The notes beneath the pieces are model-generated. The model saw only the letters and a program-made list of their open reading frames with translations, was not told where the DNA came from and searched no databases. Made by a program: the position numbers and the translations under genes. This document shows, piece by piece, positions 7,258-23,700 of a DNA stretch of 64,000 bases. Positions within the stretch are counted from its first letter, which is position 1, and each line of letters starts with the position of its first letter. The DNA is taken from assembly GCF_026625605.1 (NCBI RefSeq), contig NZ_CP113054.1, positions 2,542,001-2,606,000 on the forward strand, read 5' to 3'. The stretch is from Luteolibacter sp. SL250 (lineage in GTDB: Bacteria > Verrucomicrobiota > Verrucomicrobiia > Verrucomicrobiales > Akkermansiaceae).

Positions 7258-9648
7258 TCACTGACGGGCCTTGGCGTAGGCCGCTTTCAGTTGGTTCGCT
7301 TCGGAGGAGGCGAGGTAGGCGGCGGGAAGTTTCTGCTCGACGGTTGAGCGGGCGCTGAGGGTGTCATCCTGCAGCTTCCGCAGGGTGGCGGTCTCCCGTT
7401 GGATGACGGACTGGACCGCAGCGGCGGTGGCGGCCATCTCTTCCCTGATGGGTTCCGTCAGGTCCGGCTGGGCGAGCCGTTCCTGGAGTTTGCCAAGCTC
7501 ATCACGCTTCGCCGCGATGACGGCGAGCTGGGCTTCGAGGGATTTGAGCGCCTCAGCGAAGCCGGCGAGTTCACCTTCGGATTCCTCGGTGGCGGACTCG
7601 GCCTTTTCCGCGGCCTTGATGGCACTGGCGTTGATGGCTGCCGCGTGCCAGTGCTTCTCCGCTACCTTGATCTGCGGCAGTTCGTTCTTCACGGCTTCCG
7701 CTGCGGCAATGGCGGCAGCCGCGCCCTTGCCTGCCTCCTCCACGGCTTTGCGCAGCGGTGGCAGGGCATCTTCCGCAGGTTTGATGCGGGCTTGGGCGAC
7801 TCCGGCGGTTTTGTTCGCCATCTCAAAGGCGGAGGCCAGCGGGCCCTCCTGATTGGCCGGGGCATCGAACGCCTGCTGGAGTTTCACCAGTTGGTCGCCG
7901 ATCTCGCGGTTCTTCTGCTCCGCGGCGGACAGCGGGGCGGGGTCGCGCTGGTCTTCCGGCAGTGCTGCCAGTGCGGCTCTCTTGGCGTCGGTGTCGGCCT
8001 GTGCCGCCTTCTTCGCTTCCGCGAGGCGGTTGATTTCCTCTTGCTGCTTCTGGCGTGCACCCCTGCGGGCATCCAGTTCCTGTTTCGCTTTGTCGGCGCC
8101 AGCCTTGGAGGCCTGGGCAATCTCCTTCGACTGCTTCAGGGTGTTCTCGGCATCGGCCAAGGCTTTTTTCGCTGCTTCCACGGCAGCGGCCTTTTGTTTG
8201 GCCGCGGCTTCCGCATCCGCCAGCCGCTGTTTCTGGGTGCCGGCGCGTTCCGCCAGCGTTTTGATGCGGGTCCCGATCGCAGGTGGGTTGGCGTGGATTT
8301 CGCCGAGTGGCTTGCCCTCGGTGGTGTCGAACGCACGGATGGTTCCCAGCGCGTCGGCAACAAAGGCTTTCTTGCTCTCGACGTCGATGACCACGGAGGT
8401 CGGGAGTTCCGGCAGCGGGCCGATTTCCTTGAGCAGGTTGAAGTCCGGCTTCCAGAGCTTCGCCTTCTTGTCCCGTCCCGCCGTGATGAACGAGCCGTCG
8501 CGGGCGAAGGCGAAGGCGGTCACGCCGCCGGGATGGGCGTCGATCTTCTTCACCTCGCCGCCGTTGTTCATCTCCCACATACGGACGGAGCCGTCCTCGG
8601 ACGCGGAAGCGAGGATGTTCGAGTCGGAGCGGAAGGCGAGGCTGGTGATGCCCGCCTGGTGCGCCCGCAGGGTGTGGAATTCATTTCCGGTGTCCGTTTC
8701 CCAAACCCACACACCGCCGTTGCGGTCGCCGCTGGCGAGCAGGATGCCGTCATTGGAAATGTCCAGCGCGGTGATCCAGTCCGTGTGCTTCTTGATGGAG
8801 GTGATCATCTCGCCATCCTCCGTCTTCCACAGCTTGAGCAGGCGGGATGGACCACCGGTGGCGACGATGTCGAAGCCGGGCTTGATGTCCGCGGCGAGGA
8901 TGGAGTCGAACTCCTTCGCGGCCGATAGCAGTCGCGAGCCGTTCGTCACGTCGAAGGTCACGGTGATGCCGGATTTGCCGGGGATGCCGCCGCCGACGAT
9001 GAGGTAGCGGGCGTCCGGAGTGAAGGCGAGCGAGATGGGGTCTCCCTCCGGGAACGGCAGGATGCCGACGAGTTCCAGGGTGTTGGTATCGTGCAGCAGG
9101 ATCTGCCGCTGGCCGGTGACGGCGATCAACGGCGCCCAAGGGGACACTGCGAGGGCGTGGACGGAGGAGGCCTTCGGGGTGATCACCTCCGGCTCCAACA
9201 GGACATGCTGCGGCATCGGTGGAGGACCGTCCGGTTTCTTCGAGGGATCGGAACCCATCGCAGTCTCGAACTTCGGCTTCGACGGTTTCTTCGCGGAGGA
9301 GTTCTTGTTCTCGAGGAGACCGCCCTCGATCCACTGCTTGAGGACGTCGATCTGAGCGCCGGCCATCTTGTCACCTTCCGGTGGCATCTTCGGTTCGACG
9401 GTCTGGATGACACAACCGAGCAACTTCGATCCCGCGTCACCGGGTTCAACGATCTTTCCGCCCGAACCGCCCTTGAGGGTCGCGCCGTAGGTGGAGAGAT
9501 CGAGGCCGCCTTTCGCTTTGTCGGGGTTGTGGCAGTTGAGGCAGGCTTGCTGGAAAACAGGCAGGACGTGATCGTCGAAAGTGACCTTGTCCGCAGCGAT
9601 GGCGAACGGCGCGGAAAGCACGAAGAGGGTGGTGTAGCGGGAAATCAC
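7258..9648 (-). CDS. Secreted c-type cytochrome / WD40-repeat protein with C-terminal coiled coil
   Basis: 796 residues in three parts. After a signal peptide (about 1-19) comes a planctomycete-type cytochrome c domain with one haem motif, CLNCH at 36-40, followed by KAKGGLDLSTY and the MPPEGDKM segment that can supply the axial methionine. Residues about 160-460 form a WD40 propeller (repeats with LAFSPDG-like and VWVWETDTG units). Residues about 470-790 are an Ala/Lys/Glu-rich coiled coil. The architecture is characteristic of Planctomycetes and Verrucomicrobia, where such proteins sit in the periplasm. The role is not established; scaffolding or redox sensing is a guess. Confidence 0.9.
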   Translation of the reverse strand: MISRYTTLFVLSAPFAIAADKVTFDDHVLPVFQQACLNCHNPDKAKGGLDLSTYGATLKGGSGGKIVEPGDAGSKLLGCVIQTVEPKMPPEGDKMAGAQIDVLKQWIEGGLLENKNSSAKKPSKPKFETAMGSDPSKKPDGPPPMPQHVLLEPEVITPKASSVHALAVSPWAPLIAVTGQRQILLHDTNTLELVGILPFPEGDPISLAFTPDARYLIVGGGIPGKSGITVTFDVTNGSRLLSAAKEFDSILAADIKPGFDIVATGGPSRLLKLWKTEDGEMITSIKKHTDWITALDISNDGILLASGDRNGGVWVWETDTGNEFHTLRAHQAGITSLAFRSDSNILASASEDGSVRMWEMNNGGEVKKIDAHPGGVTAFAFARDGSFITAGRDKKAKLWKPDFNLLKEIGPLPELPTSVVIDVESKKAFVADALGTIRAFDTTEGKPLGEIHANPPAIGTRIKTLAERAGTQKQRLADAEAAAKQKAAAVEAAKKALADAENTLKQSKEIAQASKAGADKAKQELDARRGARQKQQEEINRLAEAKKAAQADTDAKRAALAALPEDQRDPAPLSAAEQKNREIGDQLVKLQQAFDAPANQEGPLASAFEMANKTAGVAQARIKPAEDALPPLRKAVEEAGKGAAAAIAAAEAVKNELPQIKVAEKHWHAAAINASAIKAAEKAESATEESEGELAGFAEALKSLEAQLAVIAAKRDELGKLQERLAQPDLTEPIREEMAATAAAVQSVIQRETATLRKLQDDTLSARSTVEQKLPAAYLASSEANQLKAAYAKARQ

Positions 9649-9935
9649 AGGTCCGATGCTTTGGGTTGCAGCGGAATACGTGTGGGTAAATCCCGGTTTT
9701 TCGTTTATTTTTTAGGTTTGCATCAGTTGTGGCACCTCGGGTGCCTGATATTTAACCCTTGTTTTCCTGAAAACATCGGCTATCCATCCGCCACGCGCTT
9801 TCCCGAGCGTCGCAGGGCCTGAGTGGCCCGAGCCTGTTCCGGTCTTCATCGATGAGAGATTGTTCTGGGATTCACTGACAACCTCATCGACCCGCCAGCC
9901 GCCCATCAATCCGGCGCGGGCTGGCATACGAAAAC
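9649..9935 (+). promoter_or_regulatory. Leader/promoter region upstream of the DEAD-box helicase, with three hairpins
   Basis: 287 bases between divergent genes. Perfect short hairpins are at 9731-9745 (6-bp stem, 3-nt loop), 9815-9829 (5-bp stem) and 9894-9925 (7-bp stem), the last ending ten bases before the helicase ATG and so able to mask the start site. Long structured leaders are known for cold-induced DEAD-box helicase genes; here that is inference. Confidence 0.4.
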
Positions 9936-11465
9936 ATGACCACGAAGACATTCGGGGAGCTGCCTTTGGCGGCACCCCTCCACAAGGTTTTGGCTGAACT
10001 CAACTATGAGACGCCATCCCCCATCCAGGCCCAGGCGATCCCCTATCTGCTGGAAGGCCGCGACGTCCTCGGCTGTGCGCAGACCGGCACCGGCAAGACG
10101 GCGAGCTTCGCCCTGCCGATCCTCCATGCGCTGCACGAGAAACCGAAGCAGGTCCGCCCGAAACAATGCCGCGTGCTGGTACTCGCTCCGACCCGTGAAC
10201 TCGCCGGCCAAGTCGGCAAGAGCTTCACGACCTACGGCAAATACGTCCGCTTCTCCCAGACGCTCATCTACGGTGGTGTCGGCCAGGTGCCACAGGTGAA
10301 TGCCATGCGCCGCGGTGTGGATGTGCTGGTGGCCACACCGGGCCGTCTGCTCGACCTCATCGACCAGAACCATGTTGACCTTTCCGGGGTCGAGTTCCTC
10401 GTGCTGGATGAGGTGGACCGCATGCTGGACATGGGCTTCCTCCGGGATGTGAAGCGCATCATCTCCTTCCTGCCCGCCCGCAAGCAGTCGCTGTTCTTCT
10501 CCGCCACCCTGGCACCGAACATCGTCGATCTGGCGAAGACCATCCTCCGTGATCCGGCCAGCGTTTCCATCGCGCCGGAGACCACCACGGCGGAACGCAT
10601 CGAGCACACCGTCTGCTTCGTGTCGAAGGACAACAAGCGCCCGCTGCTGGAGAAGCTCCTTCGCGAGCAGTCCGGCGTGGAGTCGGGCAAGCTCACCATC
10701 GTCTTCAGCCGCACCAAGCACGGAGCGAACAAGCTGGCGAAGAGCCTTTCCTCCTCCGGCTTCCCGGCGGACGCCATCCACGGCAACAAGTCGCAGGCCC
10801 AGCGCGAGAAGGCGCTGGACCGCTTCAAAAAAGGCCTCACCCCCATCCTCGTTGCGACGGATGTGGCGGCGCGTGGCGTGGATGTGAAGGACGTCGGGCT
10901 GGTCGTGAACTTCGACCTCCCGAACGAGCCGGAAGCCTACGTCCACCGGATCGGCCGGACGGGCCGTGCCGGTGCGGAAGGCCGTGCCGTTTCCTTCTGC
11001 TCGGAAGATGAGCGCGAGTTCCTGCGCGAGATCGAGAAAGTCATCAAGATGCCCGTCCCCCACTCGAATGACCATGAGTGGCACGACGAGGATCTGGCCC
11101 AGCGCCATGTGAAGCTCAAAACCGGTGGCCGCATGGTCCAGGGCGGACGCCAGCAACAAGGTGGAGGCGGTGGGAACCGTGGCCGCCAAGGGGGCGGTGG
11201 ACGCCAGCAACAGCAAGGCGGAGGCGGTGGAAGCCGTGGCCGTCAGGGCGGAGGCGGACGCCAGCCACAGGGCGGTGACCGCCGCCAGCGTGGCAACGGT
11301 GAACGTCCCCAGGGTTCCGGCAACCAAGGCAGGGGAGATGGGGCAACCCGCAGCCGCTACCAGATGGATGAGGATCGTGGCGAACAGCGCGGGTCTTCCT
11401 CGTCCGGTGGCCTCCTGCGGAGCGGCCTCAATGCCATCCGCAAGATGGTCGGATCCGACCGCTGA
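9936..11465 (+). CDS. DEAD-box RNA helicase, RhlE-like, with Gly/Gln/Arg-rich tail
   Basis: ATP-dependent unwinding of RNA duplexes, for ribosome assembly or mRNA decay. 509 residues. Seen in order: Q-motif (SPIQAQAIP), motif I AQTGTGKT (about 50), PTRELA, motif II, SATL, and [10 protein letters not shown] (motif VI, about 345). Motif II reads LDEVD rather than DEAD, an uncommon but tolerated variant. After the core, residues about 400-455 are an almost pure Gly/Gln/Arg tract with repeated GRQGGGGRQ units, typical of RNA-binding tails that target RhlE-type helicases. The start is supported by the immediate in-frame [11 protein letters not shown] sequence. Confidence 0.95.
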
Positions 11466-11516
11466 TCAATGACAGGGCCGGACCTACCCTGTCCGCTGCG
11501 GCGGCCGGGGTCAGGA

Positions 11517-12395
11517 TCAGGCCCGTGGGTGGGCCAGATAGCCCGTGGCGAAGGTCTCACCGCTTTCCCATCCCAAGTCATAGCACCGCTGCTGGGCCGC
11601 CCTGCCGCTGAACAGGCCGGGACGGTCCGTGGTGGTGGTGACGGGCAGCATGCGCTTGCCGGATTTCTCCATCACCTGCAGGTGCAGGCGGTGGATCTCC
11701 GCCGTGATGAGGAGGTGGCCGCGGGACAGCGTATCCGCGATGCGCGGGCGGAAGCCCGGCTGCTTCCACCGGTCCGCCACGGAGGGATGGTGGATGTGGT
11801 GGGTGATGATGGTATCGACCCGCGCATCCTCCGCGTAGTGGAGGAATGGGGAGCTGTTCGCCAGACCTCCGTCCCAGCATAGTTCGCCATCAACCTGCTG
11901 GGGGGAGACCAGACATGGGAAAGCGCAGCTCGCCAGGATGGCGGAGACGCTGTCCCCGGTGGTCAGGATCTCCGTGCGCAGCTTGTTCAGGTTCGCGACG
12001 GTGACGGACACTTCGCCGTGGCGGCACGCTTCCAGTACCGGGGCACGCTCCAGCAGCACGCGGGTGAGGTATTTCCGCGCGTCCCGCGCTGAGGTGAGGC
12101 CACTCACGCCCGGCCAGCAGAACATCATCGCGAAGCCCCGTGCGAAGCTCTTCAGCTCCCAGAAGCTCCACTTGAACTTCGGGTCGAAGATGATCGCCTT
12201 GATCTCCTCCGCGGTGAATCCGGCACCGAGCAGGGTGGCGATCATCGATCCGGATGACGCTCCGGCGAAGAACCCGGGCCTGATGCCATGATGGAGCAGC
12301 GCCGCTGCGAATCCCGCATGGGCGAAGAACCCGAAGTAGGAGGACTCCAGGCTGAGTGCGAGTCCCGGGGTGATGTCAGGCAGCGTTTCCGGCAT
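11517..12395 (-). CDS. Patatin-like phospholipase family protein
   Basis: Predicted serine acyl hydrolase acting on lipids. From the ATG at 12395 it has 292 residues. The nucleophile elbow is GASSGSM (GxSxG) near residue 50, and the catalytic Asp is in WDGGLANSSP in the second half, the DG[GA] motif of patatins. The usual oxyanion glycine-rich stretch (GGGxRG) is not well preserved: the N-terminus reads LSLESSYFGFFAHAGF. The frame is open to 12446, but that would overlap the upstream gene by 71 bases, whereas 12395 gives a 20-base overlap, so I prefer it. It is translationally coupled to the membrane protein upstream. Confidence 0.85.
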   Translation of the reverse strand: MPETLPDITPGLALSLESSYFGFFAHAGFAAALLHHGIRPGFFAGASSGSMIATLLGAGFTAEEIKAIIFDPKFKWSFWELKSFARGFAMMFCWPGVSGLTSARDARKYLTRVLLERAPVLEACRHGEVSVTVANLNKLRTEILTTGDSVSAILASCAFPCLVSPQQVDGELCWDGGLANSSPFLHYAEDARVDTIITHHIHHPSVADRWKQPGFRPRIADTLSRGHLLITAEIHRLHLQVMEKSGKRMLPVTTTTDRPGLFSGRAAQQRCYDLGWESGETFATGYLAHPRA

Positions 12396-13386
12396 GTTTC
12401 GGCTGGGAAAGGGATCTTGGAAGAAGGGAGGTGGCAGCCAGTCCACCCATCAGGCACCAGAACAGTCCACAGAGAAATCCTCCGAGGGAAATGAGGACGG
12501 AGGCCCCGGAGGAAGTCCTGCTCAGGGAGGCGAGCTGGTCGCGGAACAACTCCTCCCTCATGCCCAGTCCTCCGGGAGTCGCGGGCACGGTGGTGGCGGC
12601 CTCAATCACCGGCATGACGGTGTTGATTTCATGCAGTGTCACACCCGCATCGCAGCCCCGGGCGATGCACCAGAAGGTGGCGAAGTGGAGGGCCACCATC
12701 AGCACGCTTGCGGCCACCGCACCCAGCAGTTTCCACCCGGCTGGACGGAGCTGCTCGAAGCAGCCGGAAACATGCAGCATCCACTCCCGTGCGGGCATCC
12801 ACCGTGGAAGCCACCGCCGGGCATTTTCCGTGCCGCAGAACCAGCAGAAGAGGAACAGCAGCGAGGAAAACACCAGATAACCCCAGAGGAAATGCACCGC
12901 CGCCTTGCCCGTGGGCGTCGCGGACAGAACCTCGCGGGCGGGGAAGGTGAGGAACAGGGCGGGCAGGATCAGCGAGACAAGCCCGCAGAGGCGGTCTGCG
13001 ATGACGGACACCATCAGCCGGGAAGCGGATCCGGGAAACCGCCGGGTCAACATCAGAATCCGTGCCGCGTCACCACCGATGCCCCCGATCACAAAAGTAC
13101 CGACGAACGAGCTGGCGAGAAAAACGCGGGCCAGCATCTTCCAGCCCGCCTGCACGCCCAGCAGGCGCAGGCAGATCCACCATCTCCACACATGCGCGGC
13201 GATGCTCGCCCCGGCGCAGATCACCCCCGCCATCATCCAGCCGGGATGGATGCTCTTCCATGCGGTCGCAAAGCTGCTGGAGAAATCAGGCCGTGACAGG
13301 ACCCACCAGAGGATGGCCGCCGCGATGAGGATCTGGATGCCGAAAAACACCCGGCTGCCCCACTTTTTTCCTGCGCTTCCACTCAT
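12376..13386 (-). CDS. YbhN/LPG-synthase-type multi-pass membrane protein (UPF0104-like)
   Basis: 336 residues with about eight hydrophobic segments, starting at about residue 13 (FFGIQILIAAAILWWVL). The family signature of the lysylphosphatidylglycerol synthase transmembrane domain is visible: ASSFVGTFVIGGIGGDAARILML near 90-115, then ADRLCGLVSLI, and near the C-terminus TTVPATPGGLGMREELF. Members are flippase-like proteins of the inner membrane or the membrane half of MprF; no aminoacyl-transferase domain is present here. It overlaps the patatin-like gene downstream, which suggests joint work on membrane lipids (inference). Confidence 0.85.
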   Translation of the reverse strand: MSGSAGKKWGSRVFFGIQILIAAAILWWVLSRPDFSSSFATAWKSIHPGWMMAGVICAGASIAAHVWRWWICLRLLGVQAGWKMLARVFLASSFVGTFVIGGIGGDAARILMLTRRFPGSASRLMVSVIADRLCGLVSLILPALFLTFPAREVLSATPTGKAAVHFLWGYLVFSSLLFLFCWFCGTENARRWLPRWMPAREWMLHVSGCFEQLRPAGWKLLGAVAASVLMVALHFATFWCIARGCDAGVTLHEINTVMPVIEAATTVPATPGGLGMREELFRDQLASLSRTSSGASVLISLGGFLCGLFWCLMGGLAATSLLPRSLSQPKHAGNAA

Positions 13387-13554
13387 GGCCGGAGGGATCG
13401 GGTGGCGGGTGGTCGGACGGGCATGAACTTGGGAAACAGAATGAAGTGCTGGAAAGTCCGCGAAAGATGCCAGCCCGCCGAGGGTGGTCGCAAGCAGGAT
13501 AAATGGGGGCGGATGCCGGCATGCCGGACGGGGGGGCGGAATCCGTTGGTGGGA

Positions 13555-13971
13555 TCACTCGGGCAGGCCATCCAGCAACCAGACGCCGTTCACCTTCACC
13601 AGTTTCAGCTTCAACCGGTGCTTGTCGCCGCCGAAAGAGGAGGCCACCACCACGGTGGCGGTGTCCTCCTTGATGATCGCCGTTTCGGTCTTGAACGGTG
13701 CGGAGGGGATGTCCTGGGCGTTGAGCACCGGATCAGCATCCACCTCCTCCGAGTTCATGATCTTTGCATAGGCTTTCCTGAATTTGTCCGTCACCAGCTT
13801 CGACTTGGCCACCCACACCTTGGTGTCGCGGTTGGCGTCCACCTCCGCGACATATCCGGCGTAGAATTTCTCGGTCACGATGCCGGGGCCGTCATCCACA
13901 CCGGCGGCGGAACTGGGGAGTTCCGCGAACAGGGTGAGGATGAGGCACAGCAGGATGGAGAACGGTTTCAT
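13555..13971 (-). CDS. Small secreted protein, possibly DUF3828-like
   Basis: 138 residues from the ATG at 13971, which has GGAAG six bases upstream. Residues 1-22 form a signal peptide (ILLCLILTLFAELPSSAAG). The mature part starts with a helix (VTEKFYAGYVAEVDA) and ends with a beta-rich segment (ATVVVASSFGG, LKLKLVKVNGVWLLDGL) that resembles the secreted DUF3828/NTF2-like proteins; I am not certain of that. It lies 58 bases after the subtilase on the same strand and could be the last gene of that operon. Confidence 0.7.
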   Translation of the reverse strand: MKPFSILLCLILTLFAELPSSAAGVDDGPGIVTEKFYAGYVAEVDANRDTKVWVAKSKLVTDKFRKAYAKIMNSEEVDADPVLNAQDIPSAPFKTETAIIKEDTATVVVASSFGGDKHRLKLKLVKVNGVWLLDGLPE

Positions 13972-14029
13972 GCTTCCGGACAGAAGAGCGGAAACAGATG
14001 GATGGGTCAATCCGGCGCTGTGGACGATC

Positions 14030-14848
14030 TCAGGAATTCGGTCCCCGCATGGAGGGATTCCACGGCGTGGCGATTTCCTGGAGCAGCGCCTTTGCCACCG
14101 GTGGCTTCAGCCCCGGTTGCATGGAAAGCAGGCGTGCCAGCAGACCGGCGGCGTGGGGCGCGGCGAAGCTGCTGCCGGTCTTCTTCGACCAGCGGCCATT
14201 TTTCCATGGCAGTTCCAGATCCACCCCGCGTGCGGCGAACTCCACCAGATGGGAGGCGAAGGGACCATGCGGCTGGTCCCAGCGGAAAAACAGATCGTCG
14301 CTCTCGGTCTTCGCCATGTTCACCGTGATGACGCTGGGAAAATGCCCGGGCCACTCCGCGCTGCGGAAGTCGTCGTTGTCACAGGCGCTCACCACATGCA
14401 CGCCGCGGCGGTAAGCCGTGTCGATCCATGGTTTGAAATGTTCGATGCGGGTGATGTCCGCGCGGCTGCCGAAGCTGCAGTTGATGATGTGGTAGCCCAG
14501 ATCCACGGCCAGCGCGGCGGCCTCACGGATGATCTGGAACTTGCTTCCCAGCCGCTGGTCCAGAACCCGGAAACTGCCGATCTGCGCTTCCGGGGCAATC
14601 CTGCGGATGACATGGGCGACGGCGGTGCCATGGCCGAAGAGATCGACGCCCCAGGCCGGGGAACGCTTGACGATGCCTTCCGTGGTCAGTTCGAAGGCGA
14701 GGTCATCGATGAGCCGAAGCCCGGCCATGGCGGGGTGGGTGAGTTCGATCCCGGAATCGATCACCGCGATCCTGATGCCCGCGCCGCGGCCGTTGGTGAT
14801 GGCGTCGCGGGCGTCCTCGGGACTCAGCCAGTTGGAGCGGTGGTTCAT
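14030..14848 (-). CDS. Intracellular S8-family (subtilisin-like) serine peptidase
   Basis: 272 residues with the complete catalytic triad: Asp31 in AVIDSGIE, His73 in FGHGTAVAHV and Ser227 in GSSFAAPHAAG. Asn158 in ACDNDD is the likely oxyanion residue. There is no signal peptide and no propeptide, and the catalytic Asp comes only 31 residues in, so the enzyme should be a cytoplasmic, single-domain protease. Its ATG overlaps the stop of the GAF-like gene (ATGA), so it is translationally coupled to it. As the enzymatic member of an operon with a TPR/cyclase-like regulator, it would be the likely effector (inference). Confidence 0.93.
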   Translation of the reverse strand: MNHRSNWLSPEDARDAITNGRGAGIRIAVIDSGIELTHPAMAGLRLIDDLAFELTTEGIVKRSPAWGVDLFGHGTAVAHVIRRIAPEAQIGSFRVLDQRLGSKFQIIREAAALAVDLGYHIINCSFGSRADITRIEHFKPWIDTAYRRGVHVVSACDNDDFRSAEWPGHFPSVITVNMAKTESDDLFFRWDQPHGPFASHLVEFAARGVDLELPWKNGRWSKKTGSSFAAPHAAGLLARLLSMQPGLKPPVAKALLQEIATPWNPSMRGPNS

Positions 14849-15399
14849 GAGGATTCCATGCCCAGGGTGGAGCGGATGAGGCGGTCCTCGATCAACCGGC
14901 CCAGCAAGGATGCCGTGTCAGCCGGTGCGGCGGGGGATGGCACAGGTTCATCCTTTCCGTAGAACACCCGGCTCAGGACGGCGGCCGTCGTGCCGAAAAC
15001 GATGACCGGGCTGGCCGCCATGGCGGAAATGGTGACACCACGCAGACGTTCGAGGTTGGTCCATTCCGCCGCCTGCAGATCATACGCGCCTTCGGTCGCG
15101 GAGCGCTGGCTTGCGGCCACACGGGCGACGAGGCCTTCCCCGCCGTCAGCCTGGGCGCGTGCAGAATCTCCGCTGGAACTCCATCCCACCACGTGGCCGG
15201 TGCCACCCATTCCCCAGAGGATGAGTTCCGCCCCGGGGGCTTCAGCCGACGCCCAGGCCAGGCAGCGCAGTGCGTGGGTGCCAAGGAACTGCGGGAGATG
15301 GTCCGCGCTGATCTCCGCGATCATGACGGAGAGTTTCGTTGTGAGCAGGGCGCCCGCCGCCTCCAGCGCCGGATCAGGGACGATGACGAGTCGGTTCAT
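14845..15399 (-). CDS. Unknown protein with GAF-like features, between a TPR/cyclase-like gene and a subtilase
   Basis: 184 residues, no signal peptide or membrane segment. I do not recognise a named family with certainty. The middle part has the run of a GAF-type sensor domain: a strand with ELILWGMGG, then ADGGEGLVARVAASQRS, close to the GEGLVGRVA motif of GAF domains, then a strand VIVFGTTAAVLSRVFYG where GAF domains have their last core strands. The C-terminal 40 residues are a Pro/Ala linker plus a helix (SLLGRLIEDRLI). It lies six bases after the upstream gene and overlaps the subtilase start by four bases, so the three are one transcription unit. A sensor or adaptor role is inference. 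Confidence 0.75.
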   Translation of the reverse strand: MNRLVIVPDPALEAAGALLTTKLSVMIAEISADHLPQFLGTHALRCLAWASAEAPGAELILWGMGGTGHVVGWSSSGDSARAQADGGEGLVARVAASQRSATEGAYDLQAAEWTNLERLRGVTISAMAASPVIVFGTTAAVLSRVFYGKDEPVPSPAAPADTASLLGRLIEDRLIRSTLGMESS

Positions 15400-15405
15400 G
15401 GCGGG

Positions 15406-17190
15406 TCAGGCGGGTTGCACGCGGAAGATCCGTTCGGATGAGTTGCCGAGCAATATCTCCCCGGAATGCTCGAAGCGGAAGCCCCGGATGGCCTCCAGGG
15501 AGGAGAGGGCGGTGAAACTTTCCGTCGCAGCCACCGTTCCTGCGGGCATGGCGGCTGCGACGGCGGCGGCACGGAGGATGGAGGTGCCTTCGTGGGAATG
15601 GAAGTTCAGCACCGGATTGACCAACTGCACGAGCGGCCCCGCGTGGAGACAGACGGAGGGTCTGCCGAGGGTGCCGGACTCCCCGAGGGCCTGTAGCAGG
15701 TCGAAGCACACCACGGCGGCGGCATGGAGATCATCGAACAGGAAAAGATAGTCCGCGCCGAATCCCTGCCTTGCCAGGGGAGGATGCGCCGCGATGGCCA
15801 GTCGTGCGGCGATGGGACCGAGCACCGCTTTCTGGAACACGACCGGGCCTCCCTGGCCGAAGTTCGTATAGTCCGCGAAGTGGAAATGGAGCAGCGCCAG
15901 TACCTCCGACTTATCCTTTGCCTTCGCAAGTGCCCGGGGAAAGGGCACCGCATCCGCAGGAGCCTCCTTGTCCGGCACGGCATCCTCTTCCGGGGCGGCC
16001 GGACGGCGGGCGGAGACGTGGAGGTTTTTCCGCTGCCAGAAGGGCAGGGCGGTGGCTGAAAAATCCGCGCCCACCGCCAGTGCCTCCAACGTGAAGCCCA
16101 AGTGGTCCGCCCGCAGCGCGGCGCGGGCGGTCATCATCCGGTCGATGAAGCCTGGATCATCCTCGCCTTCCGAAGGTGGCTCCATCAGGGAAGAGGCTTG
16201 GTTGAGCAGGACGTGCAACCGGGCCGGATCCTCCCCAGCGGGGGCGACACCCATCGAGATATGCAGATCCAATCCCGCATCGCGGGCCGCTTCCAACAGG
16301 ATGATGTCCCAGCGGGACTTCAGGCTGCCGAACACTTCGCGGATCCGCCGCTCGGCCAGCCAGCCTGAGAGCATCCCACGGACGGAGATGGCTTCTTCCT
16401 CTGTTGGCTCCAGGTCCGGTTGGCCGGAGAAGATGGCGATTCCACCGGAGGGGAAGCATACATCCAGATGATCCCTGCGGCCATGCAGCTTCAGGCATAG
16501 TTCACGGCACTGCCTGCGGGTGGAGGCCAGGTCGGCCAGACGTTTTTCCGCGCAGGCGAGGCGGGCGGCTTCCTCATACTGGTTCCGCGCTTCGCTTTCA
16601 TTCCCCAGGATCAGATGGGCCTCGGCCCGGGTGGCGAGGGAATAGTAGTCCGCTCCCTCTCCCGCATGGATGAGAGTCCGCTCCGCGATTTCCTTCGCGG
16701 TCGCCGGATCGTCGAGCAACACGGAGATCGCCGCGGCGTTGATCCCGCAATAGGCGGCCCCGGCGGAGTCCCCGGCGGCTGATGCGGAGGAGAACCCGCT
16801 GGCATAGTTCGCAAGCGCCGCCTGCAGGTGTTGTGCACGTCCTTCGGGTGTTGTGGAACCTGCCGCCAGATCTTTCTCCACCCGCCCCAGAAGGCCGGAT
16901 GTTTCGGCGGATGCGCCTTCTTCCGCCGCGAGTTTGTCCAGATGGCCGCGGGCCGCATCCAATGATCCCAGCACCGCCAGCGCACGGGCCATCTGTTGCA
17001 CGATCCCGGCGCGCTCCGCTGGCTGGGTGGCAAGCACCGCCTCCGCGATGCCGATGGCCAGCAGGTGATCCCCGGAGCCGTTCGCTTGTTTCAACAGCGC
17101 CACCGCACCGGCTGGATCGTCCAGATACGGCTGCCTTCCGGCGAGCCAACTGGCGCGTGCCGTTCTGGATGGAGGAGGGGAACTCGGCAC
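15406..17190 (-). CDS. TPR (TRAFs-binding/DUF4071-like) protein with a C-terminal degenerate nucleotidyl-cyclase domain
   Basis: About 594 residues from a GTG at 17190. Residues about 20-235 are a TPR array like the TRAFs-binding (DUF4071) domain: GINAAAISVLLDD, DYYSLATRAEAHLILGN and LASTRRQCRELCLKL. Residues about 238-320 begin GGIAIFSGQPDLE and contain DIILLEAARDAGLDLHISM, matching the segment that follows the TPRs in related proteins. Residues about 428-594 follow the class III cyclase fold: LLHFHFADYTNFG holds the first metal Asp, but the second (GDxLY in the family) reads GADYLF, so catalysis is doubtful. LHAGPL and the ending VAATESFTAL match well. The start is uncertain: AAGGAG lies only two bases before the GTG, and an ATG at 17277 is also in frame. 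Confidence 0.82.
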   Translation of the reverse strand: MPSSPPPSRTARASWLAGRQPYLDDPAGAVALLKQANGSGDHLLAIGIAEAVLATQPAERAGIVQQMARALAVLGSLDAARGHLDKLAAEEGASAETSGLLGRVEKDLAAGSTTPEGRAQHLQAALANYASGFSSASAAGDSAGAAYCGINAAAISVLLDDPATAKEIAERTLIHAGEGADYYSLATRAEAHLILGNESEARNQYEEAARLACAEKRLADLASTRRQCRELCLKLHGRRDHLDVCFPSGGIAIFSGQPDLEPTEEEAISVRGMLSGWLAERRIREVFGSLKSRWDIILLEAARDAGLDLHISMGVAPAGEDPARLHVLLNQASSLMEPPSEGEDDPGFIDRMMTARAALRADHLGFTLEALAVGADFSATALPFWQRKNLHVSARRPAAPEEDAVPDKEAPADAVPFPRALAKAKDKSEVLALLHFHFADYTNFGQGGPVVFQKAVLGPIAARLAIAAHPPLARQGFGADYLFLFDDLHAAAVVCFDLLQALGESGTLGRPSVCLHAGPLVQLVNPVLNFHSHEGTSILRAAAVAAAMPAGTVAATESFTALSSLEAIRGFRFEHSGEILLGNSSERIFRVQPA

Positions 17191-17379
17191 GGCTCCTTGA
17201 TTTCTAACGGGAAACTCCCGGCCTCCACAAGTCCCGGGATTTGCAAAATGCGGGTTGATGTTTGCATTCCGCATCATGTTGTCAGCAAAGGTTTTATGAA
17301 AATCAGTGCCGTGGTGCGGGTTTGTCCATTGGCATCCGCATTGCTGGAGTAACCCGCTCAAAACCAAACCGATCCCACC

Positions 17380-17691
17380 ATGCGTGACGTCATCATCCTC
17401 ACCGACCGTTCCAATCTGGCTGCCAGTCTTGTCCGGGGCGAACCCGCCCCCCTCGGAGTCCGGTTGCCCGCGGAATGCGTCCCGGGTTCGAGGCTGGCGC
17501 TGAAGGTGAATCTCCGTGTCATCAGCGGGACCGCGTTCGCGATGTGGATCCTGCGGAAGGTGCGTTCCATTCCGGGAAGCCATCGCATTGAAATCAACGG
17601 GCGAATCATGCCCATGCAGATGCCGGAAGCCATCGACATCATCGCGGAGGAGCTGGTGAACGCCCGCCGTCCTCTGGATGTGGCGGCGTGA
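17380..17691 (+). CDS. Small protein of unknown function, divergent from the subtilase module
   Basis: 103 residues, no signal peptide. The sequence has a natural alpha/beta pattern (DVIILTDRSNLAASL, then RLALKVNLRVISGTAFAMWILRKV, then a C-terminal helix EAIDIIAEELV), which loosely recalls small STAS-like or anti-sigma-antagonist folds; this is not a firm assignment. The minus-strand frame of the TPR/cyclase-like gene remains open across this region, but the low-complexity Arg/His/Gly-rich sequence it would encode argues that this plus-strand gene is the real one. It could be a regulator of the divergent operon. Confidence 0.5.
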   Translation: MRDVIILTDRSNLAASLVRGEPAPLGVRLPAECVPGSRLALKVNLRVISGTAFAMWILRKVRSIPGSHRIEINGRIMPMQMPEAIDIIAEELVNARRPLDVAA

Positions 17692-17732
17692 GGGATTGGA
17701 AGCCGGTAGACGGCGGCCGCACCGTTGCTCCG

Positions 17733-17854
17733 GACTGGGACCGCGGAATTCATTCCGCCCCAAAGCAACATGCCGGCAAAGCCAATGCCGGTCTGAAGAC
17801 CGGCGCTCCCAGCAGCCAGCGAAACCAAGCGGAATGAATTCCGCGGTCCCAGTC
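17733..17854. repeat. Long interrupted palindrome (REP-like element)
   Basis: Two perfect 26-base inverted arms lie at 17733-17758 and 17829-17854. The 70-base interior contains its own hairpin at 17787-17804 (7-bp stem). The whole element can fold into a cruciform-like hairpin. It lies between two genes and encodes nothing. The form is that of a dispersed palindromic repeat of the REP/BIME kind; only one copy is in this window. Confidence 0.8.
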
Positions 17855-17920
17855 GGGGGCTGCCCATTCCACCCTTCGCCCCGCTTGCATCCGTCCCAGA
17901 ACCGGTTCTAATGGCGGCAG

Positions 17921-19192
17921 ATGAATGAGCCTGCCGTCCGGAACGAACCGGTGAAGAAGAAGGAGATTTTCGGGTGGTGTTGCTTTGATTTCGCCAACTC
18001 CGCGTTTGTCACCGTGATCATCACGGTGATCTATTCGGTTTACTTCAAGGAAGAGGTGGCGAACAAAGCTCCTTGGTCGAATGCGGTGTGGGGATGGACT
18101 CTGAGCCTATCCCAGTGCGTGGTGATCCTCTTCGCTCCTCTTATCGGCGCCATCGCGGACCTGAAGGCCTGCAAGAAAAGCTTTCTCATGATTACGACCG
18201 TGGTTTGTTCGGTCGCAACCTGCGCCTTGTTCTTCGTTGGCAGCGGTGAGGTGGTACTTGCGGTTACGTTGGTGGCGATTGCTTACATCGCATTCTCGAT
18301 GAGCGAGAACATTTGCTCCGGCTTTCTGCCTGAAATCAGCACGCCAGAAACGGCCGGTAAGATATCCGGCTACGGATGGAGTTTCGGGTATTTCGGGGGA
18401 CTCATAAGTCTTGTCCTCGCGCTTGTAATCTACCAGAGTGGAGAAGGGCGAACTCCATGGACTTTCATCATGACTGGGGTCTTTTTCATGGCTGCTGCTC
18501 TCCCCACGCTGATACTGCTGAAGGAGCGCGCTATTCCACAATCCCTGCCGCCCGGCAGGAATCTATGGACTGCTAGTTGGCGGGAGAACGCGGAGTCCCT
18601 GCGTCGGTTGAGAAGTGGCGGGGCATTGGGCAAATTTTTCATCGCTCTCACCCTGTTCACTACGGGGCTATCGGCCGTGATTGCTTTTGCCTCCATCTAT
18701 GCGGCCGAGGTGGTGGGAATGAAAAAAAATGAGATCATCGGCCTGTTTGTCGTGCTGCAACTCGCAGGTGCGGCGGGAGCATATGGTTTTGGTTTCTTGC
18801 AGGACCGGAAGGGGCCGAAATACTCACTGGTGATATCCCTCTGTCTGTGGATCGCAGTGTGCGTATGGGCGGCACTATGCCGGACGAAAGTCGAGTTCTA
18901 CATCATCGGCGCGCTGGCAGGTGTCGCCATGGGTTCCCTCCAATCCGCCGGGCGGGCGGTGGTGGCCACGTTCACCCCGGAAGGGAAGAGCGGGGAATAC
19001 TTCGGCTACTGGGGCTTCTTCACAAAGCTGGCGGCCGTCATCGGGCCTCCGGTCTTCGGCATGGCGGCCACCTTCTTCGGTGAGCGGATTGCCATTTTCG
19101 TGAACGCGGGTTTCTTCATCGCCGGTCTGGTGGTGCTCCTCCCGCTGGCCATCGACCGCCGGAAATCCACCACCCCTCCGGCCGGAGCATGA
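17921..19192 (+). CDS. MFS transporter, UMF1 (Atg22-like) family
   Basis: 423 residues with about twelve membrane segments. The N-terminal IFGWCCFDFANSAF motif and the SGYGWSFGYFGG motif in the centre are diagnostic for the UMF1/Vps22-like branch of the major facilitator superfamily. The substrate is not known; fungal Atg22 exports amino acids from the vacuole. The first half is less GC-rich than its neighbours. Its stop overlaps the next gene's ATG by four bases, so the two are coupled. Confidence 0.92.
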   Translation: MNEPAVRNEPVKKKEIFGWCCFDFANSAFVTVIITVIYSVYFKEEVANKAPWSNAVWGWTLSLSQCVVILFAPLIGAIADLKACKKSFLMITTVVCSVATCALFFVGSGEVVLAVTLVAIAYIAFSMSENICSGFLPEISTPETAGKISGYGWSFGYFGGLISLVLALVIYQSGEGRTPWTFIMTGVFFMAAALPTLILLKERAIPQSLPPGRNLWTASWRENAESLRRLRSGGALGKFFIALTLFTTGLSAVIAFASIYAAEVVGMKKNEIIGLFVVLQLAGAAGAYGFGFLQDRKGPKYSLVISLCLWIAVCVWAALCRTKVEFYIIGALAGVAMGSLQSAGRAVVATFTPEGKSGEYFGYWGFFTKLAAVIGPPVFGMAATFFGERIAIFVNAGFFIAGLVVLLPLAIDRRKSTTPPAGA

Positions 19193-19488
19193 AGCTCGTC
19201 GTTTGCGCGAAGGCCGACCAAGGCCGCTTCATCGGGCTGCCCAGTGCGACCGGTTACGTCGTCTTCACCGCGGACGATGTGGACGCCATCCACCCCGGCG
19301 ATATCCTATCCAATCCGACATGGGATGAGGAAAGTGTGCCTGCCCCGAACATCCGGAACCTGACCACCGACGAGCAGGTGAAGGTGCGGTTGGAGAAATG
19401 GGGCCTGTCCCTGCCGGAAGCCCGCGAGCTGCTCACGCAGGTCGATCCTTCGGCCATCAAGTGGCACCCACCGTGGCCGGGTGCCTGA
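19189..19488 (+). CDS. Small hypothetical protein coupled to the MFS transporter
   Basis: 99 residues, cytoplasmic, no known motif. It starts within the ATGA overlap with the transporter stop. An N-terminal strand-rich part (KLVVCAKADQGRFIGLPSATGYVVF) is followed by a segment with two tryptophan-containing turns. The strict coupling is the main evidence that it is a gene. Confidence 0.65.
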   Translation: MKLVVCAKADQGRFIGLPSATGYVVFTADDVDAIHPGDILSNPTWDEESVPAPNIRNLTTDEQVKVRLEKWGLSLPEARELLTQVDPSAIKWHPPWPGA

Positions 19489-19552
19489 CGGTCCACGAAC
19501 GTCTGATGTTTCGTCGGAAGGGATGCTGGGCATGCCGCGTATCCGACCGTTC

Positions 19553-21088
19553 ATGAAAACCCGCCGGCTCCGCACCTTCCTCGCGCTTCTTCTGCTGGCT
19601 CCGGCGTTCTGCCATGCGCAGGAGACCTCCCTGAAGGCGGACATCCTCGTCTATGACTCCACACCGGGTGGCATCGTCGCGGCCATTGCCGCCGCGAAGG
19701 AGGGCCGCAGCGTCATCCTGATCACGGAGGACAAGCACCTCGGGGCGATGCGGACCAGCGGCCTGGCAATGTCCAACGCTGGGGATGAGAAGACGTTCGC
19801 AGGATTGGGCAGGGAGTTCCACGACCGCATCCACCGCTACTATCTGGGCAAGTATGGAGAGGATTCGGAACAGGTGAAACTGTGCCGCAAGGGCCTCCGC
19901 TTCGAGCCGCATGTGGCGGAGAAGATCTTCGAAGACTGGCTGGCGGAAACACCGTTGAAGGTGCTCCGGGAGGACCCCGTGGTTTCGCTGGAGAAAGAAG
20001 GCTGCCGCATCCTTTCCGTCACGACGGAGGGCAAGCGTCGCATCTCCGCCGCTGTCTTCATCGACGCCAGTTATGAAGGCGATCTCATCAAGTGGGCGGG
20101 TTGCTCATACCGTGTGGGGAGGGAGGCGAGCGCGGAGTATGACGAACCGCTCGCGGGTCTCCGCTATCCGCCGGAAAGAGTGGGGGAGGCGGATGGCAAG
20201 ACGCAGCGCTACACCTTCCGCGTCTGCCTGACGGATGTGCCGGAGAACCGCGTTCCCATCACCCGGCCCGCGAACTACCACCGGGCCAGCTACGCGCCGG
20301 ATGTCGCCCGCATCGAGCGCAAGCCGCCCGCCTCTCTTTCCGCGCTGCTTCCGCTGAACCTGCTGCCGAACCGCAAGACGGACTCCCGGACCGGCGAATG
20401 GATCGGCGGATCATGGGCATTCCCCGAGGCCAGCCGCGAGGAACGCGCCGTCATCTCCCGCGAGCACCGCGAATACAGCGAGGGATACCTCTGGTTCCTG
20501 CTGACCGATGCATCCGTGCCCGCCGCGATCAGGGAGGAGATGTCCCGGTGGGGCCATGCGAAGGATGAGTTCGCGGACAACGGGAACTTCCCCCACCACA
20601 TCTACGTCCGGGAAGCCCGCCGTCTGGTGGGCGACTACGTGATGACACAGAAGGACGTCCAGGATGAGGCGTCACGGTTCAAGCCGGACTCCGTCGCGCT
20701 CGGCAGCTACCGGCTGGATGTCCACGACGTCCAGTATGTGGTCGGCAAGGATGGCGGAATCGTACCGGAAGGAAGCATGAAGGGCGGGATCTTCGTGAAA
20801 CCCTACGAAATCCCTTACCGTGTCCTGCTGCCGAAGAAGTCGGAGGCCGTGAACCTCCTGGTGCCGGTCTGCGTCTCCGCCTCCCACATCGCCCTCTCCA
20901 CCCTGAGGATGGAGCCGGTTTACATGATGCTCGGCCATGCTTCCGGCGTGGCCGCTTCCATGAGCATCGGCTCCGGAACCCCGCTGAATGATCTACCGGT
21001 TCAGCAACTCCAGGCGAAGCTGGTGGAGCAGAAGCAGATCATCAGCGCGAAAGGGTTCCACGAACCGGCGAAGAACATCGACCCGTGA
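19553..21088 (+). CDS. Secreted FAD-dependent oxidoreductase
   Basis: 511 residues from the ATG at 19553. Residues 1-21 form a signal peptide (ALLLLAPAFCHAQ). The dinucleotide fold begins directly afterwards (ADILVYDSTPGGIVAAIAAAKEG) and runs into LGAMRTSGLAMSN, which matches the FAD-dependent oxidoreductase family (FAD_oxidored) common in Verrucomicrobia and Bacteroidetes near carbohydrate genes. The C-terminus has the expected second FAD contact region (VSASHIALSTLRMEPVYM, then GHASGVAASM). The substrate is unknown. The frame is open to 19481, but the signal peptide fixes the start. Confidence 0.9.
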   Translation: MKTRRLRTFLALLLLAPAFCHAQETSLKADILVYDSTPGGIVAAIAAAKEGRSVILITEDKHLGAMRTSGLAMSNAGDEKTFAGLGREFHDRIHRYYLGKYGEDSEQVKLCRKGLRFEPHVAEKIFEDWLAETPLKVLREDPVVSLEKEGCRILSVTTEGKRRISAAVFIDASYEGDLIKWAGCSYRVGREASAEYDEPLAGLRYPPERVGEADGKTQRYTFRVCLTDVPENRVPITRPANYHRASYAPDVARIERKPPASLSALLPLNLLPNRKTDSRTGEWIGGSWAFPEASREERAVISREHREYSEGYLWFLLTDASVPAAIREEMSRWGHAKDEFADNGNFPHHIYVREARRLVGDYVMTQKDVQDEASRFKPDSVALGSYRLDVHDVQYVVGKDGGIVPEGSMKGGIFVKPYEIPYRVLLPKKSEAVNLLVPVCVSASHIALSTLRMEPVYMMLGHASGVAASMSIGSGTPLNDLPVQQLQAKLVEQKQIISAKGFHEPAKNIDP

Positions 21089-21101
21089 TGGGCAACGTCG
21101 C

Positions 21102-22190
21102 TCAGCGCTTCGTCGCCAGGATCAGGTTGGCGTTCCAAGCGTTGTAGTGGTAGCCGGAACCGAACGGGATGGACGTCGAAGGATTGGCGGCATAGGCGGC
21201 GCGCAGGTCCGCTTGCGCATGCTTCGCGAACAGCTCGATGGGGGCTTCATAGTTGCCGAAGTAACGGATGTTCCACTGGCCCTGGTCGAAATAGCGGAAG
21301 GGAATGCCAGAGTCGTCCTGCAGGATGGCGTTGGAGTTCGCGAGGTAGAAATTCCGCACCTTCGAGAAGCGGTCGTCATGCGTCAGGTAGGACGCCGCCT
21401 TGAAGTAGGTCACGCCTCTGCCTTGTGAAGCGACCCAGGACTGGTAGCTGCCGTTGAAGCCGCTGTTGGAAAGGTCGCCGGAGACGTAGGTCGCGCGGTG
21501 GCCGCTGCCGCGGGAGTCGTTGAATGTGATCTCAACCCCCGGCTTTCCGCCTGCGGAAACGGAGGACACGCCCGTGACCGTGCCGTTTGAAAGGGCGATG
21601 GTTCCCAGCAGGATGGGCGTCACACCGCGCAGCGCGCTGCGCTCCAGGTCGGACCGCATGTCCTTCGTGATGAAGTAGCCCACGCGGAGCTGGGTTTTCG
21701 TCGCTTCACGGTAGGCTGGCAAGGCTCCCAGCACTTCCTCCGCCGGCAGGTGTTCCAGTGGCGGAACTTCGCCCACGCCTTCGAGGCCGAGCAGGACATA
21801 GTTGGGCGTATCCGGGAACATGCCGCGCACATGGAGCAGGTCAGGTCCGCCGAACGGGTAGTGAACGACTGCCGGTGAGGGGAGGTTCTGTCCGGACCAG
21901 GTGTTCATCGCCGCGATCCGGCGGCTGGCCAGTTGCCTCCAGACGGCCCGCATCTCGCGCTGGTGCTCCAGGTAGTTGGTGGTGAGTTGGAGCCGGGAGA
22001 GGACCGCTCCGCGCTTCACCGGCTTGCCCGCCAGGAACAGGGCGATGTCATTGGCGCTGGCCTCGCCGCCCACTTCCCTGAACTCCGGCGGCGGATCTTC
22101 CAGATACTGGACTTTGCTCGTCTTCGGTTTTGAGGCGCAACCGGCAATGAAGGCGCAGGCGAGCAGGAGCAGGGCGTGGGAGCGTTTCAT
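21102..22190 (-). CDS. Predicted lipoprotein of unknown function
   Basis: 362 residues from the ATG at 22190. The N-terminus is a lipoprotein signal: hydrophobic ALLLLACAFIAG followed by Cys (about residue 18). The mature protein is rich in Gly, Ser and aromatic residues, with no known domain that I can name. The frame extends further upstream to 22451, but that would run into the permease gene and bypass the lipobox. It converges with the FAD oxidoreductase, with only 13 bases between the stops. Confidence 0.8.
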   Translation of the reverse strand: MKRSHALLLLACAFIAGCASKPKTSKVQYLEDPPPEFREVGGEASANDIALFLAGKPVKRGAVLSRLQLTTNYLEHQREMRAVWRQLASRRIAAMNTWSGQNLPSPAVVHYPFGGPDLLHVRGMFPDTPNYVLLGLEGVGEVPPLEHLPAEEVLGALPAYREATKTQLRVGYFITKDMRSDLERSALRGVTPILLGTIALSNGTVTGVSSVSAGGKPGVEITFNDSRGSGHRATYVSGDLSNSGFNGSYQSWVASQGRGVTYFKAASYLTHDDRFSKVRNFYLANSNAILQDDSGIPFRYFDQGQWNIRYFGNYEAPIELFAKHAQADLRAAYAANPSTSIPFGSGYHYNAWNANLILATKR

Positions 22191-22207
22191 AGGTGGGATG
22201 GATCGAT

Positions 22208-23524
22208 TTACTGGCTTGAAGGCAACTTCGTCCGCTTCAGGGGAAAATACAACAGCCATGCTAACAGAATGGTTCCAAGCCCTGCGAGGGTGGGGACGGG
22301 GGCCGCGATGAAGGAACGCACCATCACGAAACCCGTCATCGCCAGGAAGACAATCGGCGGCAGGGGGAACCACGGGCAGCGGAAGGCCCCCGGCACCGGC
22401 TTTCTGGTGGCGCGCAGGATGAAAACACCGGCCACGGTGAGGAAGGAACACAGCGTCAGGCCGAACTGGGTGTAGGTGAGCAACCGTTCGAAGTCCCCCA
22501 CGCAGACGAAGACCAGGGCCAGCAGGAACTGGAAAAGGGTGGCCGCCACCGGGATGCCCTGTTGGTTGCGCCGCCCCAGCAGGCCGATGGCCGGGAAATC
22601 CTTGCCCATGACATTCAGCACCCGCGGTCCCGCCCAGATCAGCGCGCTCACCGTGGCAACCAGGCCCAGCGACAGCAGTCCGCTGAACCAGCGTGCCGCG
22701 CCTTCGCCGAAAAGGGACCCCGCGGCGACGAAGCCCACTTCGTTCACACCCTGCAGGGAGGAAAGGGGGGCCGCCCTCAGGAAGGCCATGTTCAGCAGCA
22801 GATAGAGGATGGTGACCAGAACCGTGCCCAGCAGCAGCGCCCGGGTGAGGGTACGGCGCACGTCGTCGATCTCATCCAGGATGTAGATCGCCGCATTCCA
22901 GCCGGAGTAGGCGTAGAAGACGAAAAGCAGGGCGATGGCATACGCGGGCTGGAGGATGATGGCCAGGTCTTCGGTGAGCTTCGGTTCCCACCGGACATCT
23001 CCCTTTCCGGGCAGTACGAACGAGGCGATGACGAAGCCGACGATGAGCGACAGCTTGAGGATTGTGGAGACCGTCTGGAGCCAGGCGCTCGACTTCAGGG
23101 TGATCAGGTGCCCCGCTGTCACCGCCACCAGCGCGGTGATGGAGACCGCCTTCGCCGGGAGCCAATCGACCGCGCTGTGGGCGTAGTTCCCCAGCGGGAT
23201 GGCGGCCAGCGCCGTGGGCGCGGCGAAACCGATCACCGCGGAGATCAATCCCGCCGCCCAGCCCATCGAGGGGTGATAGAGGGTGGAGATGAAATGATAC
23301 TCCCCACCGGAGCGGGGCAGGGCGCCACCCAGTTCCGCGTAGCAGAGGGCACCGCACAGCGCCAGCAGTCCGCCCAGGGCCCAGACCAGCATGAGCGCGG
23401 GGCCGGACGGGATGGGACCCACCTGGTAGCCCAGACTGGTGAAGACACCGGTGCCCACCATGCTGGCCACCACCAATGCTGCCGCAGGGACGGTCCGGAT
23501 GCGGCGCTGGGCAGGTTCGTTCAT
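22208..23524 (-). CDS. APC-family amino acid permease
   Basis: 438 residues from the ATG at 23524, with about twelve membrane segments. The first segment carries the APC signature for the unwound helix (ALVVASMVGTGVFTSLG), and helix 2 has GGLLALCGALCYAELGGALPRSGGEY, the consensus of the family. It imports or exchanges amino acids across the inner membrane; the substrate cannot be told from the sequence. The lipoprotein gene lies 17 bases downstream on the same strand and may be co-transcribed. Confidence 0.92.
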   Translation of the reverse strand: MNEPAQRRIRTVPAAALVVASMVGTGVFTSLGYQVGPIPSGPALMLVWALGGLLALCGALCYAELGGALPRSGGEYHFISTLYHPSMGWAAGLISAVIGFAAPTALAAIPLGNYAHSAVDWLPAKAVSITALVAVTAGHLITLKSSAWLQTVSTILKLSLIVGFVIASFVLPGKGDVRWEPKLTEDLAIILQPAYAIALLFVFYAYSGWNAAIYILDEIDDVRRTLTRALLLGTVLVTILYLLLNMAFLRAAPLSSLQGVNEVGFVAAGSLFGEGAARWFSGLLSLGLVATVSALIWAGPRVLNVMGKDFPAIGLLGRRNQQGIPVAATLFQFLLALVFVCVGDFERLLTYTQFGLTLCSFLTVAGVFILRATRKPVPGAFRCPWFPLPPIVFLAMTGFVMVRSFIAAPVPTLAGLGTILLAWLLYFPLKRTKLPSSQ

Positions 23525-23700
23525 TCCATCGCATTTTAGGCACCGCGCCCGCCCCGGGCAAGCTTCCGAAGCCCATCGGGCGGCGGATTCAGCGGGAATC
23601 GCGCGGCTACGTGGAAATCCGCCGGATCTTGCATGAAACAAAAGCACCTCTAGAGACTTGCGGACCCCGTCCCCCGCGCGTTGAATCCCGGCCCACAGGC

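Follow-up and report, generated by a model that had tools for sequence, protein, structure and literature searches.

What kind of system arises when a tetratricopeptide repeat (TPR) scaffold ending in a cyclase-like domain, a GAF-like protein and a cytosolic subtilase are encoded side by side? Luteolibacter sp. SL250 carries such an operon within the window, the 64,000-nucleotide stretch of DNA analysed here, whose own numbering is used throughout. An original prediction, made from the sequence letters alone, had taken the three genes, termed A, B and C, for one unit and for a candidate defence or self-cleavage system. We find the case evenly balanced that the operon encodes a signal-gated intracellular protease, acting as the effector of a conflict response (probably anti-phage) or of a stress response; of its possible roles, a putative defence function appears the likelier. 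The genes and the three parts of protein A are laid out as follows.

Gene A: 15406-17190, minus strand, 594 aa with a GTG start; TPR-S scaffold, Rossmann-like domain and cyclase-like domain
A residues 1-247: 16450-17190, minus strand, TPR array, with the TPR-S match at residues 45-155
A residues 250-395: 16006-16443, minus strand, Rossmann-like domain, alternating strands and helices in the secondary structure of the model
A residues 428-593: 15412-15909, minus strand, class III cyclase fold, catalytic residues gone
Gene B: 14845-15399, minus strand, 184 aa, divergent GAF-fold protein
Gene C: 14030-14848, minus strand, 272 aa, S8 serine protease (subtilase)

Sequence and translation confirm the one-unit layout, with 6 bases separating A from B and 4 bases shared by B and C. 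The order, gap and overlap are identical at locus L158 of the sister genome G288 (L and G denote loci and genomes below), where the A homologue also has 594 aa and the flanking genes are common to both. The SL250 genome is a single 4.9-Mb contig, and close homologues bear Akkermansiaceae names.

Folds of the three proteins

The N-terminal array of A matches the Pfam family TPR-S (PF20308) with 54.8 bits against a cut-off of 27.6, and the same family is matched by 24/24 aligned A-family members at E<=0.1. The family MAP3K_TRAF_bd ("TRAFs-binding"), to which the original prediction also pointed, is matched by 8 of these 24 members at the same threshold, and not by A of the window. The predicted model of A (pLDDT 88.7, pTM 0.84) has a middle domain that looks SLOG-like by eye, and a C-terminal part that matches nucleotide cyclases in a fold search covering chiefly this part. 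For it, Pfam gives nothing in A of the window and Guanylate_cyc in relatives. Besides the window's own protein, 38 A homologues were collected, 23 of which entered alignment A1 and 26 alignment A5; the search scored just the candidates sharing most words. One relative (L164:8186-10525) possesses an N-terminal RyR domain (91.3 bits), and pieces near A in L165 and L189 resemble it by eye.

Gene B of the window, searched alone, matches 0 Pfam families. The profile of the B family with its wider relatives has as best match the tandem GAF domains of an adenylyl cyclase (1ykd, E 9.3e-12), followed by 5w10 and PDE2A (1mc0). Structural similarity search with the predicted model of B, computed from 40 sequences (pLDDT 89.8, pTM 0.86), revealed mostly GAF domains among the top PDB matches, including 5w10, which is titled as a GAF domain with cAMP; query TM-scores range from 0.36 to 0.56 among the 50 matches listed, and the root-mean-square deviations are often large. 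B of the window is accordingly described as a divergent GAF protein, since it has no Pfam match alone and both its profile and its predicted fold match GAF domains, in keeping with its initial designation as GAF-like. In total, 25 B homologues were found (22 in alignment A2). Tested individually, B relatives of L066, L106 and L162 score above the Pfam GAF cut-offs, and those of L067, L160 and L195 below them.

Gene C encodes a Peptidase_S8 domain (Pfam, 86.8 bits), whose catalytic triad D31/H73/S227, called intact from the start, is invariant in 12/12 aligned homologues. The oxyanion residue N158 aligns with that of subtilisin, and the Asn is missing in two of the 12 (L031 and L034). As the S8 match begins at residue 22 of 272, the protein has no room for a prodomain; no signal peptide was seen by eye. 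In the defence-system database PADLOC, neither A nor B has a match, and C matches subtilase and IetS models alone. Altogether, profile and fold searches placed A, B and C in the families that the original prediction had named.

Loss of catalytic residues from the cyclase-like domain

At the positions of metal 1, metal 2, the Asn and the Arg of class III cyclases, A of the window has His, Ala, Leu and Ala, so that both metal-binding Asp and the transition-state Arg of an active enzyme are absent. The original prediction had noticed the loss of the second metal Asp, which holds, and had missed that the first Asp and the Arg are gone as well, and that the loss is clade-wide. Among the cyclase rows of the window clade, metal Asp 1 occurs in 0/40, metal Asp 2 in 0/40 and the Arg in 1/40 (these 40 rows hold two proteins twice, and the residue count used all 38 A homologues), compared to 18/21, 19/21 and 20/21, respectively, in the rows outside this clade. 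Little weight attaches to the Asn position, which is variable among the other rows too (Asn in 7 of 21). In the A tree, with the root drawn at the midpoint, a 100/100 branch sets off the 38 rows of the window clade; the tree leaves out L159 and P0031 (the same proteins as P0046 and L158), the anchor, and those genes of L166, L195 and L198 that are partial or split.

The loss of these residues has left the domain under selection. The window and L158 are the one pair close enough to estimate nonsynonymous and synonymous divergence (dN/dS), which amounts to 0.077/0.569 in the cyclase part and 0.036/0.504 in gene C; for this single pair, the cyclase part is thus still subject to purifying selection.

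Association of A and the B-C pair in other genomes

The A family is patchily distributed, present in 7/260 genomes of the bacterial family, 12/386 of the order and 16/387 of the phylum (overlapping samples, 28 genomes in total). The three gene families recur together in other genomes, a check that had been suggested along with the original prediction: C adjoins A in 5 of the 28 genomes (G000, which is the window genome, G288, G233, G114 and G721), and a C-family gene lies within 10 kb of A in 6/28, against 0.07 expected. With the window clade counted once, C is near A in four genomes (P ~4e-7). At least 12 of the 28 genomes, a lower bound, have TIR genes within 9 kb of A, against 0.69 expected; one of these genomes, G475, has a B-C pair ~8 kb away too. 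These probabilities overstate the case, because the distances were picked after the loci had been seen and the expectation assumes uniform placement, which ignores genomic islands. Contig ends cut the surroundings of A in 4 of the 28 genomes.

Further analysis of the genes around A was based on Pfam for 30 chosen neighbours and partners plus 10 further proteins, the other genes being named by eye. It revealed TIR_2 near A in L163, L165, L189, L190, L191 and L197, SIR2_2 with TIR_2 in L164 and L192 (SIR2_2 of L164 below its cut-off), and nSTAND1 in the latter two loci. In L160, L161 and L162, the gene after A encodes a GAF protein, and TIR genes and a patatin-like gene convergent with this pair are found nearby. 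Pfam assigns Patatin and TIR_2 in L160, whose patatin-like gene (L160:3167-4264) matches a PADLOC phospholipase effector with 123.5 bits. The TPR-S gene therefore stands beside effector-type genes that differ among relatives. Mapped onto the A tree, the neighbour labels change three times for subtilase, five times for TIR and twice for SIR2, and do not form separate groups; effector labels are nevertheless partly clustered, with 6 changes against a shuffled mean of 8.3 (as low in 8/200 shuffles).

Five lineages outside the window clade (L066, L106, L166, L195 and G475) have an A relative near B-C, and the orders differ. Compared to A-B-C in the window, L066 has B-C-cobW-A (CobW_C by Pfam), L195 has B-C-A followed by a cyclase gene, and L166 has a TPR-S gene, a cyclase gene, B and C, where the B match is weak (E 7.8e-5). 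In G475, the A-like gene (L197) and the B-C pair (L207) stand ~8 kb apart. In L106, the order is A, a radical SAM gene, a peptide-like open reading frame (ORF), MbnB_TglH_ChrH, B and C; the three intervening genes (L106:3708-7238), in which the ORF is glycine-rich and 119 aa long, look like a ribosomal peptide cluster. A and B-C thus seem to have met several times. Inheritance of A-B-C as a single operon was considered and found no support, as the A-linked C proteins require 6 label changes on the C tree, at least 3 of them by starred, well-supported branches (shuffled mean 6.7; several branches are long, and L033, where A sits on a different contig, accounts for one of the changes). This tree comprises 48 of the best 80 loci, with L024 and L032 left out.

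Scanning of genome contigs with the C alignment, of which the best 80 of 399 confirmed loci were kept, revealed the B-C pair in other lineages as well. B lies upstream of C in 28/28 of the loci L065-L092, all verrucomicrobial by title; B was found in 14/19 of L093-L111, whose titles point mostly to Chloroflexota and Actinomycetota, and in 1/32 of the remaining loci (L112 is cut by a contig end). It also lies upstream of C in 11/12 of L023-L034, of which 9 match by construction, having supplied sequences to the B profile. No fused B-C protein was seen, no ORF at the scanned loci matching both profiles. B-C often occurs without A and with partners of its own, which the original prediction had missed. 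In L065-L092, a ~75-aa protein family occurs at 20/28 loci (e.g., L067:7071-7310; 16 within 0.7 kb of C and 4 at 1.8-6.3 kb), an extracytoplasmic function (ECF) sigma gene at 13/28, and a YkuD (L,D-transpeptidase) gene that follows C at 5/28 (e.g., L070:8047-9225); the three profiles were partly built from these very loci, and the Sigma70_ECF and YkuD assignments come from Pfam on one member each. Across 16 whole genomes, the ~75-aa family is found in 7; with 9/9 matches no more than 0.9 kb away from a C gene, it appears to be a dedicated partner. Upstream of B-C, L195 has a zf-HC2 protein and a sigma region 4 match that is weak (17.1 bits, cut-off 25.7); by eye, L207 and L208 are similar to L195. 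Together with its small partner, the GAF-subtilase pair appears to form a widespread signal-gated protease module, of which no earlier description was recognised in a limited literature search. In L094 (L094:3295-4011, from a metagenome-assembled genome of Ktedonobacterales), two short ORFs upstream of the pair look leader-like by eye, and the one tested has no Pfam match.

These partners bear on an alternative that we regard as possible though rather doubtful, namely that B-C cuts a small anti-sigma-like protein to free an ECF sigma factor, and that the window copy is a derived regulator rather than a defence system. The counts of small partner and sigma genes above, together with L195 and its likes, speak for it. 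It also has a known analogue: in the Calp system (CalpL/CalpT/CalpS; PMC12751052), the ligand-activated protease CalpL cuts an anti-sigma factor. The B-C relatives share with Calp a sensor-gated protease beside sigma and presumed anti-sigma genes, and differ in having a subtilase instead of Lon and GAF instead of SAVED; the window locus, moreover, has neither the sigma gene nor the small partner. Calp is the best analogue for B-C beside sigma genes; by the same analogy, the ~75-aa protein next to B-C would be the candidate target in relatives without A. Against this alternative, none of the genomes with window-type A (G000, G288, G021 and G233) contains the ~75-aa family, and no sigma gene of that subfamily was found in the 13 kb around the operon. 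Relatives of A adjoin TIR, SIR2-TIR and patatin genes, and the small protein is a possible anti-sigma factor by our own reading, Pfam being blank for the one member tested.

Readings of the operon and its surroundings

For the operon as a signal-gated protease, we propose the following order of events. The scaffold A would sense a nucleotide or a phage-derived signal via its TPR/Rossmann part, and B, with its predicted GAF fold, would relay the signal, a plausible role already proposed for it in the original prediction; C would remain silent until released by B, and would then cleave a cellular target as the effector. In relatives with a residue-complete domain, the cyclase would make a cyclic nucleotide, the GAF partner would read it and the effector would act, presumably the ancestral order on the model of Pycsar. 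Within the window clade, the two parts presumed to handle the messenger have diverged while scaffold and protease persist, a pattern suggestive of contact gating: the dead cyclase would act, like the divergent GAF protein (inferred to have lost ligand binding), by binding or contact rather than by messenger synthesis. Only tentatively do we go further and picture a second-messenger immune circuit turned contact-driven, in which cyclase and GAF protein, having lost their chemistry in one lineage, now work together as a sensor-latch pair to set a cytosolic subtilase free. On this tentative picture, a prokaryotic TPR-S immune scaffold of the ASK1 type would carry a pseudo-cyclase and act through a protease effector, thereby linking Pycsar-like with Calp-like logic.

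Among known systems, the closest in scaffold are the TPR-S conflict systems, with which the operon family shares the PF20308 scaffold and relatives beside TIR, SIR2-TIR and other effector-type genes; the window operon differs by its pseudo-cyclase and by its pairing with a GAF protein and a subtilase. Burroughs and Aravind (J Bacteriol 2020) are reported to have described TPR-S scaffolds as sensors of NAD-derived signals and as having passed into animal ASK proteins. A term search of two eLife papers from that group gave no mention of TPR-S. The central regulatory region of ASK1 (MAP3K5) is also counted among the closest known systems. Pycsar (PMC11224242) consists of a cyclase plus a cyclic-pyrimidine receptor. 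The likeness to it lies in the class III cyclase fold and, in residue-complete A relatives, in a possible cyclase-reader-effector logic; in the window clade, however, the metal Asp are absent, the presumed reader is a separate GAF protein and the effector a subtilase, and with A and B blank in PADLOC the operon falls outside Pycsar. It likewise falls outside Calp, with no SAVED-Lon protein and no member of the ~75-aa family in its genome.

If the proposed reading is true, a subtilase effector with a GAF relay would be added to the TPR-S systems. The residue-complete relatives and the residue-less clade would then form a natural experiment on the possible conversion of a messenger enzyme into a protein switch.

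Several points weigh against this reading. B-C without A is commoner than with A among the examined loci of the C scan, and where B-C stands beside the ~75-aa, sigma and YkuD genes, plain regulation fits as well as defence. The C tree, as far as its sequences go, points to repeated association of A with B-C rather than to one inherited system. TIR genes near A may just mean shared islands, and no effector neighbour was recognised in 7 of the 28 A genomes (in one case on a contig of 5.9 kb). Ligand binding by B is putative, and a weak GAF_2 match (E<=1) occurs in 4/23 close B relatives, window B included. Finally, PADLOC gave no clear defence match among the 10 genes near the operon, and flanking genes are common to G288. 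The conflict-system reading is thus partly supported: it stands at the family level, where links to TIR, SIR2-TIR, nSTAND1 and patatin neighbours are strong, and falls short at this locus, where links to defence are weak.

A further alternative, which we consider improbable, takes C for a QhpE-like peptidase acting on a leader or precursor, with A and B regulating or presenting a ribosomal peptide. QhpE, also a small S8 protease, is the best NCBIfam match of C; its 93.7 bits nevertheless stay under the equivalog cut-off of 165, which places C outside that family. The peptide-like cluster between A and B-C in L106 favours the idea as well, but this is one of the best 80 loci, the others being without a systematic check for such genes. 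By eye, neither a modification enzyme, such as a radical SAM partner, nor a precursor-peptide ORF was seen beside the window operon, and the same holds for L158. Least probable of all is a cyclase-like domain still active with rearranged metal ligands in a still messenger-driven system, for which the His at site 1 in 30/40 window-clade rows, an Asp one position past site 2 in many rows (by eye) and the purifying selection in one pair could be cited, since both metal positions and the Arg were lost together and the replacing residues vary.

Nearness to other defence genes, another suggested check of the conflict reading, found no clear support at this locus. When the 10 proteins near the operon (7258-23647) were compared with PADLOC, 8/10 had no match at E<=0.001. 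The two others are a DEAD-box helicase (9936-11465), which matches many helicase models, with BrxHI the best at 97.7 bits, and a patatin-like protein (11517-12446), 1.6 kb past gene C, with a single weak match to a phospholipase effector (22.2 bits). We read the helicase matches as probable superfamily resemblance. Both genes are kept in L158, and a patatin gene lies near both the window operon and the A-GAF pair of L160.

Rfam revealed no RNA element in 13000-18500. For an empty-site comparison aimed at a mobile insertion, the flanking MFS protein was used as query and found in 3/73 genomes of the genus; in the third of these (L202, a short stretch), blastn aligned the MFS gene alone. Between the MFS gene and a small gene divergent from the operon sits an inverted repeat (17727-17860) with 32-base arms, 94% complementary and 70 bases apart. 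Parts of it have 78 matches across the genome (a count that includes the element itself and both palindrome strands), which marks it as a dispersed repeat element.

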